Source: a virus. Taken from it: DNA of 24,210 bases. The notes under the pieces were generated by a model. That model made no database searches, had not been told where the DNA came from, and worked only from the letters and a program-made list of their open reading frames with translations. Positions within the stretch are counted from its first letter, which is position 1; each line of letters begins with the position of its first letter. Shown here piece by piece: positions 1 through 5,502 of the stretch. A program made the position numbers and the translations under genes. The stretch spans positions 1 through 24,210 of IMG/VR virus record IMGVR_UViG_3300042879_004171. One strand, given 5' to 3'.

Positions 1-1799
1 CGTCGCCGTACATCCCGGCGCTCGCCGAGAATGACCTGCGGTTCATCCGCGAGTCCGCGCGCATCCTGAGTTCGGCTCTGCGCAAGATCGCCGGCGGCAG
101 CGTGACCTATCCGGTGTGGACGGCAGAGGCGGCAGTAGGCGCGGATGTGGTGCGCGAAAGCACCGACCGCAACGGCTACCGCTACGCCTACAGCGGCGGC
201 ACCACGGGCGAGACAGAGCCGACCTGGCCGACCACCATCGGCGGGACGGTTAGCGATGGCGACGGCACCTGGACCTGCATCGGCCTGACCGTGTGGGCGA
301 TGTGGGATGCAGCGTTCGAGGCGTTCAAGGACGATGCCGACAACCTGTTCGGCATGGCCGACGGCGAGGATCTCTCGCCGCGGATCATCATCGAGGGCGA
401 CACCACGCGCGAAGAGCGCAACCCGCCGGAGCTGTACTTCCAGCGCTACCAAGCGGCGATGAACGAGGTGATCGCAGCGGCCGGGGTCGACCCGGATTTT
501 GAGGGGGCCGGGCTGGACGGAAACCGCGTCTGGACCGATCGCGGCGGGGTGGCATGGTTCGAGTGCACGTCGCACGACCTGCTGCCCATCCAGCCCGGCT
601 ACTACTACCACAGCGCACGTCTGGGCACGGATGACACCGGCCGGCGCGTTCCGGTGTCCACGCAGGAGTTCGGCGTGGGCATCGACATTCCCTGCGAGGC
701 GCTCATCGACGGCGACCGCCTCTCGATCACGATTGACCTGGCCGGCGTGCCGCGGGCGACCTACCAGCAGGGCGATGAGTTCGTGCTGCAGATCAACCGC
801 GCCGAGCCCGTGTCGCTGTCGGGCGGGCAGGACGGCACCGATACGCTGACCTGGAGCGTGATCGGCAGCGTGGCCGGGCGGCTCGACGACTACGCGCTCA
901 GCACCACGGCGCCGGGCGGCTACAGCGACGCGGGGCTGAGCTTCGCCATCGGGCTGGGCGCGGTGCCCTTCGCACTCGGCGACCGCTTCAACTTCCGCGT
1001 GGAGGCTGCGCGCGCGCAGTGGCGACTGAACGGCGGGGCGTGGTCGGCGCCGATCGAGGCGGCCGGCACCGTCGCGCTCACGGCCGGGCTGTCAGCGGTG
1101 TTCAACCCGGGCGTGGCGCCGAGCTGGGTGGCTGGCGACCGCTGGTCATTCCTGGCCGAGGCCATCAACGGACCGGCCCGCGCCCTGCAGCCGACCGACG
1201 ATGCGCTGAGCTGGACCGGCAGCACGGCCATCACGATCACGCCGGCCGCTGGCACCGTCGACGGCCTGCTGATCGCCGACCACACGATCCCGGCCGACGC
1301 GACGATCACGCTGGAAGGCAGCGACAACGGCTTCGCCACCGTGCTCAGCTCGCAGCCCGTGGAGTGGCGCGCGCGGCACATCTGGGTGCCGATCGCCTCG
1401 CCGCGGCTGGCGTATCGGCTGGTGATCAACCGCGGCGGCTCGATCCGCTGGCTCTGGCTGGGCGATGCGCTGCAGCCGTCGATCCCGACTGGCAAGGTCG
1501 AGCTCGGCGCGTTGGTTCGGCGCTACCAGTTGCCCGGAATTGGGCGGCGGCTCGCCAGCGGCGGCACGGTTCGGCACGAGGCGCTGACGCAGGCCGCCGT
1601 GGATAACCTGGTCGAGGCCTTGGCCTGGGCCTGCGAACGCGACCGGCGCCTGATCGGTGTGCTGATCAGCGACAGCGAGGCGGCCATCGTGCGCGTGCCC
1701 GACGACGCGATCGAAGTCGAGGACCTGTTCGATCACCAGCCCGTCGACCTTGCGGCTCGCCGGCTCTCGCTGTCGCTCGACCTCGAGGCCGCCGCATGA
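1..1799 (+). CDS. Phage tail-associated protein, 5' end missing
   Basis: The frame is open from base 3, so the gene starts outside the window; the GTG at base 102 is only an internal Val codon and has no particular merit as a start. At least 598 residues are visible. The N-terminal part has the glycine/threonine/tryptophan-rich segment around bases 200-290 (pattern TTGETEPTWP...DGDGTWTC) that recurs in phage tail and tail-tip proteins; the middle is beta-rich and repetitive. It lies directly upstream of four co-directional genes, and its stop overlaps the next start as ATGA. Position at the end of a late operon supports a virion tail or adsorption role. No enzymatic motif is seen. The precise tail function is not recognised. 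Confidence 0.7.
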   Translation, partial: SPYIPALAENDLRFIRESARILSSALRKIAGGSVTYPVWTAEAAVGADVVRESTDRNGYRYAYSGGTTGETEPTWPTTIGGTVSDGDGTWTCIGLTVWAMWDAAFEAFKDDADNLFGMADGEDLSPRIIIEGDTTREERNPPELYFQRYQAAMNEVIAAAGVDPDFEGAGLDGNRVWTDRGGVAWFECTSHDLLPIQPGYYYHSARLGTDDTGRRVPVSTQEFGVGIDIPCEALIDGDRLSITIDLAGVPRATYQQGDEFVLQINRAEPVSLSGGQDGTDTLTWSVIGSVAGRLDDYALSTTAPGGYSDAGLSFAIGLGAVPFALGDRFNFRVEAARAQWRLNGGAWSAPIEAAGTVALTAGLSAVFNPGVAPSWVAGDRWSFLAEAINGPARALQPTDDALSWTGSTAITITPAAGTVDGLLIADHTIPADATITLEGSDNGFATVLSSQPVEWRARHIWVPIASPRLAYRLVINRGGSIRWLWLGDALQPSIPTGKVELGALVRRYQLPGIGRRLASGGTVRHEALTQAAVDNLVEALAWACERDRRLIGVLISDSEAAIVRVPDDAIEVEDLFDHQPVDLAARRLSLSLDLEAAA

Positions 1800-2122
1800 C
1801 GCCGGTCTGGCTGGTGATCGAGGGCAACCCGGTGCGGCAGTTCTACGCAGACGCCGCGGCCCTGCAGCACATGGATGCGCAGGCCGCGCGGCACGCCATC
1901 CTGCAGCGCGTGGGCACGCTGCGGGCCGATGTCGACGGCGAGGATCCGAACATCAGCATCGAGCTCGCCAACAGCAACGGCGAGGCCTCGGCCCTGCTGG
2001 CGCGGCGTCCGCCTGTCGGCGCTCGCGCTCGGCTGATGACGCCGGCCGGGCAGGTGTTCAGTGGCATCGTCGCCGAGATCCGCCTCGGGCGTGACTCGGC
2101 CAGCATTTCGGTGGAGTCATGA
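1796..2122 (+). CDS. Small tail-operon protein, unknown function
   Basis: This gene encodes 108 residues. Its ATG overlaps the previous stop (ATGA), with GAGG about 7 bases upstream. The sequence is compact and mixed alpha/beta, with no signal peptide or membrane segment. It begins with a WLVIEGNPVRQFY-like strand and ends in a beta-rich segment. Its stop again overlaps the next start, so it is translationally coupled inside the tail operon. A tail-tip or baseplate accessory role is inferred from position only; I do not recognise the family. Confidence 0.7.
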   Translation: MTPVWLVIEGNPVRQFYADAAALQHMDAQAARHAILQRVGTLRADVDGEDPNISIELANSNGEASALLARRPPVGARARLMTPAGQVFSGIVAEIRLGRDSASISVES

Positions 2123-3372
2123 CGCCGCTTTCCGCGCCCCTGCCGCTGCGCACCACGGCCGCATGGCCGGGCTTCCGCGAGCCGGTGGCGATCCCCCATC
2201 GCTACGGGCAGACCGGCGGCCGGCTGCTGCAGTACAGCGCAGACCGGCGCGTGTTCGTGTGGGCCGATCACCCGGTCGCCGGCGTCGATGCCGTGCTGAT
2301 CGGCGGGCAGACGGTCGGCAACTGGCAGCACCGCAACAGCACCGACAGCACCGGGCGCGCGGTGGCCATGGTCGAGTTCGACCAGCCGGTGGAAGAGGGC
2401 GCCGACCTGATCGCGCGCGGCCGCGGCAAGCTCGGCGCGGGTGGCCTGATGGTCAACCCGGCCGACGTGCTCGGCGACATCCTGACCGGCATCGCGGGCC
2501 GCCCGGCGGTCGATCTGTCCGACTTCCGCGGCGCCTGCGCTGCGGCCGGCGTCGAGGTAGGCGGCAGCCTTGAGCGTGCCGACACCCTGCGCGCGGTACT
2601 GCGCAGCCTGTGCGCGAGCATCGGCGCGGTGTTCAGCGACGGCCGCGCTTTCCTCTGGCCAGCCGGTGCGCCGACCGGCGGCTGGCGCATCGGCGGCGAG
2701 GTCGAGATCGACGCGTCCCTGCAGCTCGACACCCTGGCCAACGACCTGACGCTCCGGTTTGCGGCCGAAGATGGCCAGCCGCGCGCTTCGATCCGGATGG
2801 AAGCGCCAGACAGCATCGCCCTGTACGGCCGGCGGGAGCGCGTCGAGGATGCGCCGTGGCTGGCCTCGCCTCGCGTAGCCATCGCCGTCGCAACGCGCGC
2901 GCTGCAGCAGCGAGCCCGGCCGGCGTGGTCTGTTGGCACCGGCCCCATCGAGCGGGTGCTCCGCATCGGCGACGTCGTGGCGCTGGATCATCCGACGCTG
3001 CCGGTGCAGGCCTCGGCCGTGGTGCTGGGCCGCGAGCTGGACGCGCAGGACGGCAGCACGCGCGTGCGCTTCGAGGTGCCGGTGGGCGATGCCCCGGCGG
3101 TGCGTCTGGTCAGCCAGTCGGCAGCGCTGGACGTGCAGCAGTACGAAGGCGTCGTGATCGAGACGGTCGGCAGCGAGCGCGTGCTCACCCTGCGCGAAGC
3201 AGACGGCCGGCCGATCGTGGGCGCGGATTGCCGCCTCAACGACAACATCACTCGCAAGACAGACGGCGCCGGCCGCGTCAGCTTCCCGGCTTCGGCCATG
3301 CCGCCGGGCGTGCATGTGATCCAGTTGCGCACGGCTGACGGCCGAGAGCTTGCAGTCGAGGCGGTGGTATGA
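2119..3372 (+). CDS. Putative tail-tip/hub protein with C-terminal beta-sandwich domain
   Basis: This gene encodes 417 residues, starts in an ATGA overlap and ends in one. Residues about 1-250 are a soluble mixed fold with many short strands. Residues about 350-417 look like an Ig-like or carboxypeptidase-regulatory-like beta-sandwich (pattern LxxREADGRPIVGADCRL...DGAGRVSFP...PGVHVIQLRTADG). Such modules are often appended to surface-exposed tail proteins. Genes of this size near the end of a siphophage tail operon often encode hub or tip components, but this assignment is by position and architecture, not by a diagnostic motif. Confidence 0.65.
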   Translation: MTPLSAPLPLRTTAAWPGFREPVAIPHRYGQTGGRLLQYSADRRVFVWADHPVAGVDAVLIGGQTVGNWQHRNSTDSTGRAVAMVEFDQPVEEGADLIARGRGKLGAGGLMVNPADVLGDILTGIAGRPAVDLSDFRGACAAAGVEVGGSLERADTLRAVLRSLCASIGAVFSDGRAFLWPAGAPTGGWRIGGEVEIDASLQLDTLANDLTLRFAAEDGQPRASIRMEAPDSIALYGRRERVEDAPWLASPRVAIAVATRALQQRARPAWSVGTGPIERVLRIGDVVALDHPTLPVQASAVVLGRELDAQDGSTRVRFEVPVGDAPAVRLVSQSAALDVQQYEGVVIETVGSERVLTLREADGRPIVGADCRLNDNITRKTDGAGRVSFPASAMPPGVHVIQLRTADGRELAVEAVV

Positions 3373-3728
3373 GGCGCTTCCGACTGTCGCCTATCTCGAC
3401 CGCTTCCGGCTTCGCTCAGACGATCGTGCTGCCGCCACCCGTGCGCGCAGCGCGTGCCGAGGCCGATGCGCCCGGCCCTGGCGGCGACTGCACCGGCGTG
3501 GCCGCACCGCCGACGTCGATCGATGTGCTGGGCAGCCTTTTCGGGTGCGGTCCCACAGAGTGGCCGGCGCAATTCAACGCGGACGAATCCAGCCTGCCGG
3601 CCGGCTACTCGCTGGGGCAGCAGGGCGTGTGCCTCGACGAAGAGCCGACGGTCTGGCCAGTGCTCCGCGAGTGCGACGGCGCGACGTTCTTCGTGCCTGC
3701 GGTGGTCACCTACGACGGGGGCGCCTGA
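3369..3728 (+). CDS. Small tail-operon protein, unknown function
   Basis: This gene encodes 119 residues. Its ATG is in an ATGA overlap with the previous gene. The protein is rich in proline, glycine and acidic residues, with four cysteines (CTG..., FGCGPTEWP, GVCLDE, RECDG). It contains two short WP motifs (TEWPAQF and TVWPVL). No signal peptide is visible. The stop overlaps the following start as TGATG. It is probably a minor virion or tail assembly protein by context; the family is not recognised. Confidence 0.6.
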   Translation: MRRFRLSPISTASGFAQTIVLPPPVRAARAEADAPGPGGDCTGVAAPPTSIDVLGSLFGCGPTEWPAQFNADESSLPAGYSLGQQGVCLDEEPTVWPVLRECDGATFFVPAVVTYDGGA

Positions 3729-3859
3729 TGCGCATCAGCTTCCGCCGACAGCAGCCCAAGCCAGCGCCAAAGCGCGCGCCGCCGCCCGACCCAAAGCCGC
3801 CGTGCGAGCGGTGCCGCAAGATCCGCGAGGCCGCCCGGCGTCTGGTTGGGCTCAGGTAG
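3728..3859 (+). CDS. Very small proline-rich CxxC protein
   Basis: This 43-residue reading frame starts at an ATG that shares its A with the previous stop (TGATG), preceded by a G-rich stretch. The sequence is basic and proline-rich in its first half, followed by a CERCRKI motif (a single CxxC) and a basic helix. It closes the tail operon. The tight coupling is the main argument that it is translated. A metal-binding or structural role is possible but cannot be shown. The stop codon lies in the left arm of a perfect inverted repeat. Confidence 0.5.
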   Translation: MRISFRRQQPKPAPKRAPPPDPKPPCERCRKIREAARRLVGLR

Positions 3860-3872: not shown

Positions 3873-4150
3873 CGCAGCCGCGGCATCTGGCCGACGCGCG
3901 CCGCCTGCGGCGGCCGGCACACTGGCACTGCCTTGGAAGCCCTGGCGCCCGCTCCGCCCCGGAGAGTGAGCGCAACCCCTGCAGCGGGTCAGACTGCAGC
4001 AAGCTGTGCCAAGGTGATGCGCCGAGGGCCTGCATGGATGCGGGCCCTTCTTCATGGGACGATCCCGGCGTTCAGCGCTCCAAGGTCAAGATGGCCACGT
4101 CACAGCAGCGCCAGCCCACCGTCCTGCCACCCACCGACCGGAGAACCTGC
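3873..4150. other. Intergenic region after the tail operon
   Basis: No convincing reading frame is present in these 278 bases. The stretch holds the intrinsic terminator at 4025-4052. Just before the next gene is a purine-rich ribosome-binding site, CGGAG, about 7 bases from its ATG. A longer in-frame start at 4034 exists, but it lies inside the terminator and would add a non-hydrophobic stretch before a clear signal peptide, so I do not accept it. No consensus promoter is obvious. Confidence 0.5.
4025..4052 (+). terminator. Rho-independent terminator of the late (tail) operon
   Basis: The arms AGGGCCTGCAT and ATGCGGGCCCT (one U-G wobble) lie on either side of GG and are followed by TCTTC. 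The effective RNA loop is larger than the 2-base spacer because the innermost pairs cannot close. It sits about 165 bases after the last tail gene and before the secreted cargo gene. Confidence 0.6.
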
Positions 4151-4432
4151 ATGCGCACCCTGATCGCTGCCGCCATCCTCGCCGCCGCCGTCGCGGCTAG
4201 CCCCGCCCAGGCCAGCGGCGGATCCCACACCGAGAGCTGCGGCCAGAGCGTCATCACCGTCGGCGACCCCATCACCAAGGTCCGCAACGCGTGCGGAGAG
4301 CCTTGGCGCGTGGTGCAGCTGGAAAACGTCTTCGGCGCCGGCGTCGGCGAGCGCTGGGAGTACGAACGCACCACCGGCATGGTGCAGTTCTGGATTCAGG
4401 GCGGCAAAGTCGTACGCATCGACAGGATCTGA
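4151..4432 (+). CDS. Secreted DUF2845-family protein (putative cargo gene)
   Basis: This gene encodes 93 residues. Residues 1-21 are a typical Sec signal peptide (MRT, hydrophobic alanine-rich core, cleavage after AQA). The mature part matches the DUF2845 pattern: GDPITKVRNACGEP near residue 40, then ERWEYER and a C-terminal beta-hairpin ending in GGKVVRIDRI. This family is common as small periplasmic proteins in gammaproteobacteria; its function is unknown. The start is fixed by the signal peptide and a GGAG 7 bases upstream. It lies between the late-operon terminator and attP, a usual place for lysogenic-conversion cargo. Expression from its own promoter is inferred. Confidence 0.75.
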   Translation: MRTLIAAAILAAAVAASPAQASGGSHTESCGQSVITVGDPITKVRNACGEPWRVVQLENVFGAGVGERWEYERTTGMVQFWIQGGKVVRIDRI

Positions 4433-4435
4433 GTC

Positions 4436-4714
4436 ATGGCCAAGTACGAGTTGACCTTCACGGTGCAGCCGTTGGCCGTCGCCGCTCCTCCTGGCATGCG
4501 GGACGACCCAGACCCCAGCAAAAGCTACGCTGGCTCCGGCTCAGTGCTCACCGTCATGCCTAGCGGCGAGTTCACGCTGGCCGAGTATTCGCGCGCATCC
4601 GGCATCCCTGCGGCGGAGTTTTGCCCGGCCAGCGCAGAGCGCGTTCGGAAGGCCTGCGCCTCAAGGGCTCAGCCGGCTGTCGTCAACGTCAATCACCGGC
4701 CTCTCGACGCCTGA
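4436..4714 (+). CDS. Small hypothetical protein downstream of the DUF2845 gene
   Basis: This gene encodes 92 residues starting 3 bases after the previous stop. It opens with a beta-strand-like MAKYELTFTVQPL, then GSGSVLTVMPSGEFTLAEYSRASG, and a polar C-terminus. There is no signal peptide. The ribosome-binding site is weak (AGGA overlapping the end of the upstream gene), so it is probably coupled to it. It is the last + strand gene before attP. I do not recognise the family. Confidence 0.55.
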   Translation: MAKYELTFTVQPLAVAAPPGMRDDPDPSKSYAGSGSVLTVMPSGEFTLAEYSRASGIPAAEFCPASAERVRKACASRAQPAVVNVNHRPLDA

Positions 4715-4720
4715 ATCTCG

Positions 4721-4730
4721 TTCCGCAATC
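4721..4730 (+). repeat. Candidate integrase arm-type site P-1 (TTCCGCAATC)
   Basis: This is an exact copy of the 10-mer TTCCGCAATC on the left (P) side of the attachment core. Together with the inverted copy at 4780-4789 it makes a 12-bp inverted repeat (bases 4719-4730 and 4780-4791). I found exact copies only in the attP region. Confidence 0.5.
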
Positions 4731-4779: not shown

Positions 4780-4789
4780 GATTGCGGAA
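4780..4789 (-). repeat. Candidate integrase arm-type site P-2 (inverted copy)
   Basis: This is an exact inverted copy (GATTGCGGAA), 44 bases left of the tRNA-derived core. It pairs with P-1 as a 12-bp inverted repeat spaced by 49 bases. Confidence 0.5.
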
Positions 4790-4832
4790 CGGGAATAGCG
4801 CGCAAGCTACTGAAAATAGGACTTTTCGGTTA

Positions 4833-4894
4833 GGACTCGAAATCCGGTATACGCCTCCGGCGTATCGAGGGTTCGAATCCCTCCCTCTCCGCCA
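4833..4894 (+). other. attP: attP core: 3' part of a tRNA-Ser(CGA) gene
   Basis: The segment reads as the 3' 62 bases of a serine tRNA. It has GGA/TCC anticodon-stem bases around the loop CTCGAAA (anticodon CGA at 4838-4840), a long variable arm TACGCC/GGCGTA, a T arm GAGGG-TTCGAAT-CCCTC, the acceptor 3' strand CCTCTCC, discriminator G and encoded CCA at 4892-4894. No 5' half is present upstream (bases 4740-4832 cannot form D arm or acceptor), so this is not a working tRNA gene. It is the identity block a phage carries to rebuild the host tRNA on integration. The phage integrase gene lies 0.6 kb to the right. The exact left limit of identity needs the host sequence. Confidence 0.8.
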
Positions 4895-4943: not shown

Positions 4944-4944
4944 G

Positions 4945-4972
4945 TTCCGATATCTGGATCTATTCCGCAATC
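4945..4972 (+). repeat. Candidate integrase arm-type sites on the P' side
   Basis: An exact TTCCGCAATC lies at 4963-4972, and an 8/10 match (TTCCGATATC) at 4945-4954, in direct orientation 18 bases apart. The exact copy overlaps the last codons of the leftward gene that ends at 4960. Arm sites on both sides of the core are the usual layout for lambda-type integrases. Confidence 0.45.
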
Positions 4973-5502
4973 TGACGCTGGAAGCGCGCTGTAGAAGCCG
5001 CGATCCGGAAGAAGATGGCTTCGCCAAACTGGTTGATCGCAAGGTTGACCGCTGCGCAGACCAGGCGGACGTTGTCTTCGGTGTAGCCGCGCCGCGAATC
5101 GATGCGGTCGATGCTTGGCATCCAAGGCCGAACGCGCTGTCCTGGGTATCGGCAGCCGCTGAAGGGGATTCCTGAGACTGAGCACTTGCCGCCAGAGCTC
5201 GGCATCTGAGCCGCGAGGAACTCGGTTGTCAGGTTGTGCTCCAGTCCGAGCTGCACCGCCCGCTTCCGAGAACGGATCAACATCCCGCCAACCGCATTCT
5301 TCGGCACGGCGACCGCGGCCGTAGTCGGCTTTGCCAGCTCGGCATACCTCACCAGCGCCAGCTGAAGATCGCTGCCCAGAGCAACCTCAGCCCTGCGGCC
5401 TTTCTGACTGGGCTGGCACAGGTAGTAGTAGGTCCCAGACTGTCTCCGCCTAGCCAGCATTCCCGGCGGCAGTTCGAAGTTCCGGAGGCGAGGGCTTCCC
5501 AT
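4960..5502 (-). CDS. Integrase-like arm-binding domain joined to an HNH-like domain
   Basis: This gene encodes 180 residues. Residues about 10-58 (LPPGMLARRR...GTYYYL...GRRAEVALGSDLQLALVRYAEL) match, column by column, the N-terminal arm-binding segment of the neighbouring integrase (LRARKRG..TWFYYD..RREEPLGCDYGLAIQRWAEI). Residues about 75-170 follow the HNH-like pattern: a basic helix, then C107-SVSGIPF, C117, PSIDRID (130-135), GYTEDNVRLVC and an Asn at 153. The usual catalytic His is replaced (DRID where DHID is typical), so nuclease activity is uncertain. It follows the integrase stop by 2 bases, has a weak ribosome-binding site, and is the last gene of the leftward operon before attP. 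There is no tyrosine-recombinase catalytic domain, so it could modulate or compete with integrase at the arms (inference). Confidence 0.65.
   Translation of the reverse strand: MGSPRLRNFELPPGMLARRRQSGTYYYLCQPSQKGRRAEVALGSDLQLALVRYAELAKPTTAAVAVPKNAVGGMLIRSRKRAVQLGLEHNLTTEFLAAQMPSSGGKCSVSGIPFSGCRYPGQRVRPWMPSIDRIDSRRGYTEDNVRLVCAAVNLAINQFGEAIFFRIAASTARFQRQIAE

Follow-up and report, generated by a model that had tools for sequence, protein, structure and literature searches.

What a gene that joins an integrase-like N-terminus to an HNH-like nuclease does between an integrase gene and a phage attachment site is the question raised by a virus record of 24,210 bases (the whole stretch analysed, hereafter the window), in which this reading frame begins 2 bp past the integrase stop codon (Table 1). 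The original prediction described the fusion and offered two kinds of role, an accessory that sets integration versus excision or a selfish nuclease targeting att DNA. Sequence matches and predicted structure confirm the fusion of an integrase-type arm domain with an HNH domain, and the comparative data (recurrence, occupied and empty sites, sporadic presence and low G+C) favor the selfish nuclease. We consider it somewhat probable, on comparative sequence grounds, that the product is a free-standing homing-type endonuclease that targets attP through its integrase-type arm-binding domain. As to the phage itself, the tail genes of the window (30-3826) are about 83% identical to those of Cylindrospermopsis phage Cr-LKS3.

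The first 58 residues had been said to resemble the arm-binding segment of the adjacent integrase, and they do: residues 13-62 share 32% identity with it (blastp, E = 8e-5), none of 5000 shuffled controls reaches the score (z about 9), and the domain is closer still to other integrases of the same clade (40-43% identity, E down to 2e-8). Its similarity score against integrase N-termini is 107, with a null maximum of 55. An AlphaFold2 model of the nuclease, based on a 24-sequence alignment (pLDDT 88.7), predicts for the N-domain a three-stranded sheet and a C-terminal helix (b15-18, b24-28, b39-43, a46-57). In VIA-align, run on the chains ranked highest by Foldseek, the solved structures nearest to residues 9-63 are those of the lambda Int N-domain (1z1g, Z = 5.9; 1kjk, Z = 5.8), so that the structural comparison agrees with the predicted likeness; the arm domain of the HPI integrase (3jtz) gives Z = 4.8. 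Modest Z values are expected for a small domain of 49 residues, and the sequence backs the assignment. One relative (L053) clears the Pfam arm-domain cut-off, with 22.2 versus 22 bits. A Pfam search of the window nuclease at E up to 10 returned zero matches, AP2 included; the catalytic recombinase domain is thus absent, as predicted, and an HNH domain follows the arm domain.

In a PHROG search this C-terminal part matches phrog_3322 (endonuclease; residues 74-170, E = 1.6e-23). The bba-metal fold has PacI (3ldy) as its top match in Foldseek (prob 1.00, E = 6.8e-3), and PacI also ranks first in VIA-align of residues 66-175 (Z = 8.7 over 107 residues). In the phmmer alignment, where SIDRIDSRRGYTEDNVRLVC of the nuclease is aligned to VDRSDSFEGYSPQNARLAC of PacI, the nuclease has Asp-Arg, Tyr and Asn at the PacI positions and no catalytic His. 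The metal in PacI is held by Asp and Asn, and Tyr replaces His as the general base (PMC4081073). The earlier observation that the usual catalytic His is replaced therefore stands, with R133 in its place, but this does not amount to the loss of the active site, since PacI has the same arrangement, with Tyr in the role of His. Nine distant HNH relatives all keep D132, R133, Y140 and N153, and so do 24 sequences (the window protein and 23 relatives with an arm-type N-terminus, 24-38% identical to it), an invariance that is partly built in because the relatives were retrieved by patterns holding parts of the active site (GY..N and P.PSIDR). No decayed copies of the active site were seen among the relatives retrieved. 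This invariance makes it likely that the window nuclease, as predicted from its sequence, is active. In the close nuclease pair L049/L050, synonymous and non-synonymous changes number 6:1, this being the one informative pair; L269/L270 are too similar to judge. It was also observed that PHROGs 4592 and 1400, named Srd or decoy of sigma70, match the PacI-like HNH domain, so that some Srd/decoy annotations may be relatives of this nuclease.

Table 1. Features of the window around attP, and loci in which the nuclease gene ends at an arm repeat
Feature	Position	Strand	Basis or remark
Chimeric arm-binding / PacI-like HNH nuclease gene, 180 aa	4960..5502	-	ORF list, PHROG 3322, structure/fold matches, absent in L002
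Tyrosine integrase, 340 aa	5505..6527	-	Pfam PF00589, E 1.3e-17
Integrase-type arm-binding domain, residues 9-63	5314..5478	-	blastp to adjacent Int; lambda Int N-domain, Z 5.8-5.9
PacI-like bba-metal nuclease domain, residues 66-175	4978..5307	-	phmmer to 3ldy, VIA-align Z 8.7
D132; R133; Y140; N153	5107-5109; 5104-5106; 5083-5085; 5044-5046	-	Invariant in alignment A3
Arm repeat 1, GATTGCGGAAT, 1 mismatch	4962..4972	-	GATTGCGGAAC in L002
Arm repeat 2, degenerate GATATCGGAAC	4944..4954	-	Intact GATTGCGGAAC in L002
attP core, 3' part of tRNA-Ser gene	4830..4894 (about)	+	Sequence; Rfam RF04351 sub-threshold
Arm repeat 3, intact GATTGCGGAAC	4780..4790	+	
Arm repeat 4, intact GATTGCGGAAC	4720..4730	-	
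Loci with nuclease 3' end at an arm repeat			Window, L049, L072/L269/L270, L075, L109, L200, L273, L073, L143, L144, L134

The nuclease gene adjoins attP, as the original prediction had it: the 3' end of a tRNA-Ser gene has GATTGCGGAAC-type repeats on both flanks. The Rfam RF04351 match at the core is sub-threshold and on the minus strand, and was taken as an antisense tRNA-Ser; ARAGORN found no whole tRNA there. Four repeats are present, two on each side of the core, and the two on the integrase side are altered. Arm repeat 1 encodes the last three residues of the nuclease (IAE) and continues into its stop codon. Many relatives of the window integrase (L003-L038) keep the same order, with arms right after the integrase stop, then the tRNA end and an outer arm, and their repeat varies around a TTGCGGA-like core while the layout stays.

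A related phage, L002, has an integrase 89% identical to that of the window and no nuclease gene between the integrase and the first arm repeat. There the integrase stop leads directly into GATTGCGGAACAG-ATCAGG-GATTGCGGAACAG, with the tRNA core and then the outer arms beyond it. Between integrase and core, the window has an additional insert of about 540 bp that contains the gene, its arm 1 differs at one base and its arm 2 is degraded, and we infer that the window gained the gene rather than that L002 lost it. A second indel also abuts an arm repeat: a 92-aa ORF of the window (4436-4714), which has no PHROG match, is missing from L002, and the gap falls exactly between the ORF at 4034-4432 and the outer arm at 4720-4730.

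A similar pair of states is found with GTATTAGACAG-type arms. In L269 and L270 the nuclease lies between int and the first such arm, whereas in L271, L276, L277 and L267 two arms come straight after int and there is no nuclease. Arm 1 of L269/L270 is inside the last codons of the nuclease (GTATTGGACAG), and arm 2 is degenerate with its spacing unchanged. L269/L270 and the L271 group differ in addition along the tract as far as the core, which was therefore probably exchanged as a block. L273 and L224-type phages provide a third, looser comparison of occupied and empty sites. At about ten loci the 3' end of the nuclease gene falls inside an arm-like repeat or a few bp from one (Table 1), and even in L049, where the gene is across the core from int, it ends in such a repeat; in L128, L160, L190, L156, L164 and L091 a short-repeat search found no arms. 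By eye, the attachment site of KHG-type phages (L264, L267, L271, L276, L277 and L288) appears to be the 5' end of mutS, with an HTPMMQQY-like sequence after the arms.

The gene is sporadically distributed. None of the 37 relatives of the window integrase (L002-L038) has it, although about 16 of those contigs end just after int, and in another integrase clade it is present in 5 of 80 members. In all 20 loci compared, the G+C content of the nuclease gene is lower than that of the neighbouring integrase gene (by 6.5 points on average); the values in the window are 62.8% and 69.5%. At the same place in L029 (5088-6517), a window-type integrase is followed, as judged by eye, by a Vsr-like endonuclease and a C5 methyltransferase.

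No relatives came up when viral and genome contigs were scanned with the single protein, and alignments were needed to retrieve the family. Scans with the HNH domain gave 110 distinct HNH proteins, 25 of which have an integrase-like N-terminal region (arm-type, a score of at least 60 against integrase N-termini, the shuffled maximum being 55). When these fusions were surveyed for neighbouring integrases, as had been proposed, 23 of the 25 lay within 1.5 kb of a tyrosine integrase, compared with 14 of the 85 other HNH proteins (P = 4.5e-12, Fisher's exact test, on loci that are not fully independent). Most arm-type nucleases come immediately after int (-22 to +24 bp between the two genes), and among 42 control records PF00589 is found in 3 and no integrase match in 39. 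Outside these phages, five query proteins found no convincing full-length relative in cultured phages, the matches listed with more than 80% cover being weak HNH-type proteins (about 23-32% identity) or a two-gene match (H1), and in 368 gammaproteobacterial genomes, leaving aside that of the query, a single partial match (positions 38-149 of 176) turned up. Two arm-type nucleases, L129 and L130, are in bacterial contigs (Rhodocyclaceae and Hyphomicrobiaceae MAGs) with no integrase found alongside.

The pairing extends to the type of arm domain. The N-domain of the nuclease is more similar to its own neighbour integrase than to other integrases (0 of 20,000 permutations reach the observed value), and in its relationships it agrees better with the neighbouring Int (Mantel r = 0.61-0.62) than with the HNH half of the same protein (r = 0.24), from which we infer that the two halves have been recombined. 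The window nuclease gets better scores with the integrases of L049 and L134 than with its own, so the correspondence is one of integrase type. At four loci (L188, L190, L196 and L206) the N-domain fits another integrase type much better than that of its neighbour; in L188 (5256-5857) it is of KHG type and the neighbouring integrase is not, and a GTATTAGACAG arm lies about 40 bp past the nuclease stop. HNH relatives that lack the arm domain are found between terminase genes and in similar places, which free-standing homing genes typically occupy. In L051 (4959-5684), L139 and L140, a PacI-like HNH protein without the N-terminal arm domain carries, as judged by eye, a C-terminal AP2-like stretch, and in L051 its gene overlaps the integrase gene.

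The precise presence and absence of the gene next to its presumed target, its sporadic spread, deviant composition and conserved active site are typical of free-standing homing endonuclease genes, and together suggest arm binding, cutting of attP and copying by repair. In a homing reading, the arm-binding domain would place the nuclease on the arm repeats of attP, and the PacI-like HNH domain would cut nearby, with D132 and N153 binding the metal, Tyr140 as the general base and R133 conserved beside them. The arm repeats beside the gene would then be the recognition site of the nuclease, and its recurrence beside different integrase types argues that nuclease and integrase may recognise the same arms. 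If a related phage with matching arms and without the gene were co-resident, its attP would be cut beside the first arm, and recombination repair from the carrier would copy the gene, together with flanking int/att sequence, into the break, so that the gene would come to lie just past the integrase stop and ahead of the first arm. Such cutting would also handicap a competitor. The altered inner arms of the carrier may be an escape from its own nuclease; because its outer arms (4780-4790 and 4720-4730) are intact, self-protection requires the assumption that paired or inner arms are needed.

The main rival to homing is an attack on competitors in the manner of Odn, the origin-directed nuclease of phage ICP1, in which an HEG-derived T5orf172 nuclease carries a RepA_N domain similar to the one in its satellite target (PMC10448857, PMC8263062). 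The chimeric nuclease would here be domesticated and kept because it is protective, destroying the attP, or circles that carry att, of phages or satellites that compete with its bearer and have the same arms, without homing. Odn provides an experimentally shown precedent (PMC10448857, PMC8263062), the N-domains of the four mismatched loci fit an integrase type other than the neighbour's, and the operon-like coupling to int, with overlapping or nearly overlapping genes, could point to a domesticated role and against homing. However, the Odn domain resembles a protein of the enemy, whereas the domain here is in most cases like that of the adjacent integrase; the gene sits at an arm site of its own, as a homing gene would; low G+C and sporadic presence indicate mobility; and PADLOC gives no match. 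We regard this explanation as unlikely, though it deserves to be taken seriously. It is more doubtful that the protein regulates its own integrase by occupying the arm sites, competing with or assisting Int and so setting the balance between integration and excision, while cutting would be minor or would not occur. Both proteins have the arm-domain fold, the genes are coupled and an arm-only binder would compete with Int; yet the PacI-type residues are invariant, which is unexpected if binding alone mattered, and nearly all relatives of the window integrase lack the nuclease while their attP arm layout is complete. For these reasons we consider a regulator improbable, and the accessory role of the original prediction found no specific support.

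Two further explanations appear very improbable. That PacI is a restriction enzyme and that a C5 methyltransferase gene of the phage (7006-8847) lies about 1.5 kb from the nuclease would fit half of a restriction-modification system with arms protected by methylation, but the empty relative L002 also has the methyltransferase. A general pairing with C5 methyltransferases was rejected, as PF00145, the only methyltransferase family covered, exceeded its cut-off in just 4 of the nuclease records tested. A chance fusion or a degenerate, functionless integrase fragment would account for an N-domain that corresponds to part of an integrase-type protein. Against this, such genes are found next to several types of integrase, their frame intact and their catalytic residues invariant, and the changes in the close pair mentioned above are mostly synonymous (6 versus 1).

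We thus return to a homing-type nuclease aimed at attP. The recurrence of the pairing in many phages suggests a gene, selfish or competitive, that targets the sites by which phages enter the chromosome. A broader proposal, which we hold to be evenly balanced, is that these genes form a widespread undescribed class of attP-directed chimeric nucleases, in which a PacI-type HNH domain has repeatedly acquired an arm domain that matches the local integrase in type, so that both proteins read the same sites and the gene spreads or competes by cutting the attachment sites of rivals. If so, phage attachment sites would themselves be contested, by nucleases that find them with the address-reading domain of the integrase; a recurring unannotated gene between int and attP would be explained, and a natural source of arm-site-specific nucleases would be at hand.

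The statement that no system of this form has been described holds in part: NCBIfam and PADLOC have no family for the window nuclease, and the papers searched include none on an arm domain joined to a PacI-type HNH domain, but HNH-AP2 homing endonucleases and Odn are clear analogues, and the parts and logic (PacI, arm domains, HNH-AP2 homing enzymes and Odn) are already known. With PacI (3ldy), an HNH type II restriction endonuclease, the nuclease shares the bba-metal fold and the D-R...G-Y...N...N motif; PacI contains structural zinc motifs, has an 8-bp specificity of its own and lacks an arm domain, whereas in the window nuclease the full set of zinc Cys is not seen and an integrase-type arm domain leads. 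Residues 9-63 have the sheet and helix of the lambda-type arm-binding domain (Arm-DNA-bind_1; 1kjk, 1z1g and 2wcc), but no core-binding or recombinase domain follows as in a lambda-type integrase. F-CphI (DHHRN, Endo VII-type) is a free-standing phage homing endonuclease of the bba-metal fold (PMC6083498), with a DHDH motif containing His and zinc Cys pairs that the window nuclease does not have. HNH-AP2 (IPA-HNH) homing endonucleases, also free-standing in phages, combine HNH with a small DNA-binding domain (PMC10448857); their HNH is N-terminal and AP2 C-terminal, whereas here the arm domain is N-terminal, the nuclease is PacI-type and the gene is at attP. Like Odn, the window nuclease carries a DNA-binding domain resembling that of another protein, and hence would be aimed at that protein's site; if our reading is correct, it would be the second example, after Odn, of a nuclease retargeted by taking the DNA-binding domain of another protein. 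Odn is aimed at the origin of a satellite, while the window nuclease, with its HNH and arm domains, is apparently aimed at the arms of attP and, unlike Odn, lies beside its own presumed arm site.
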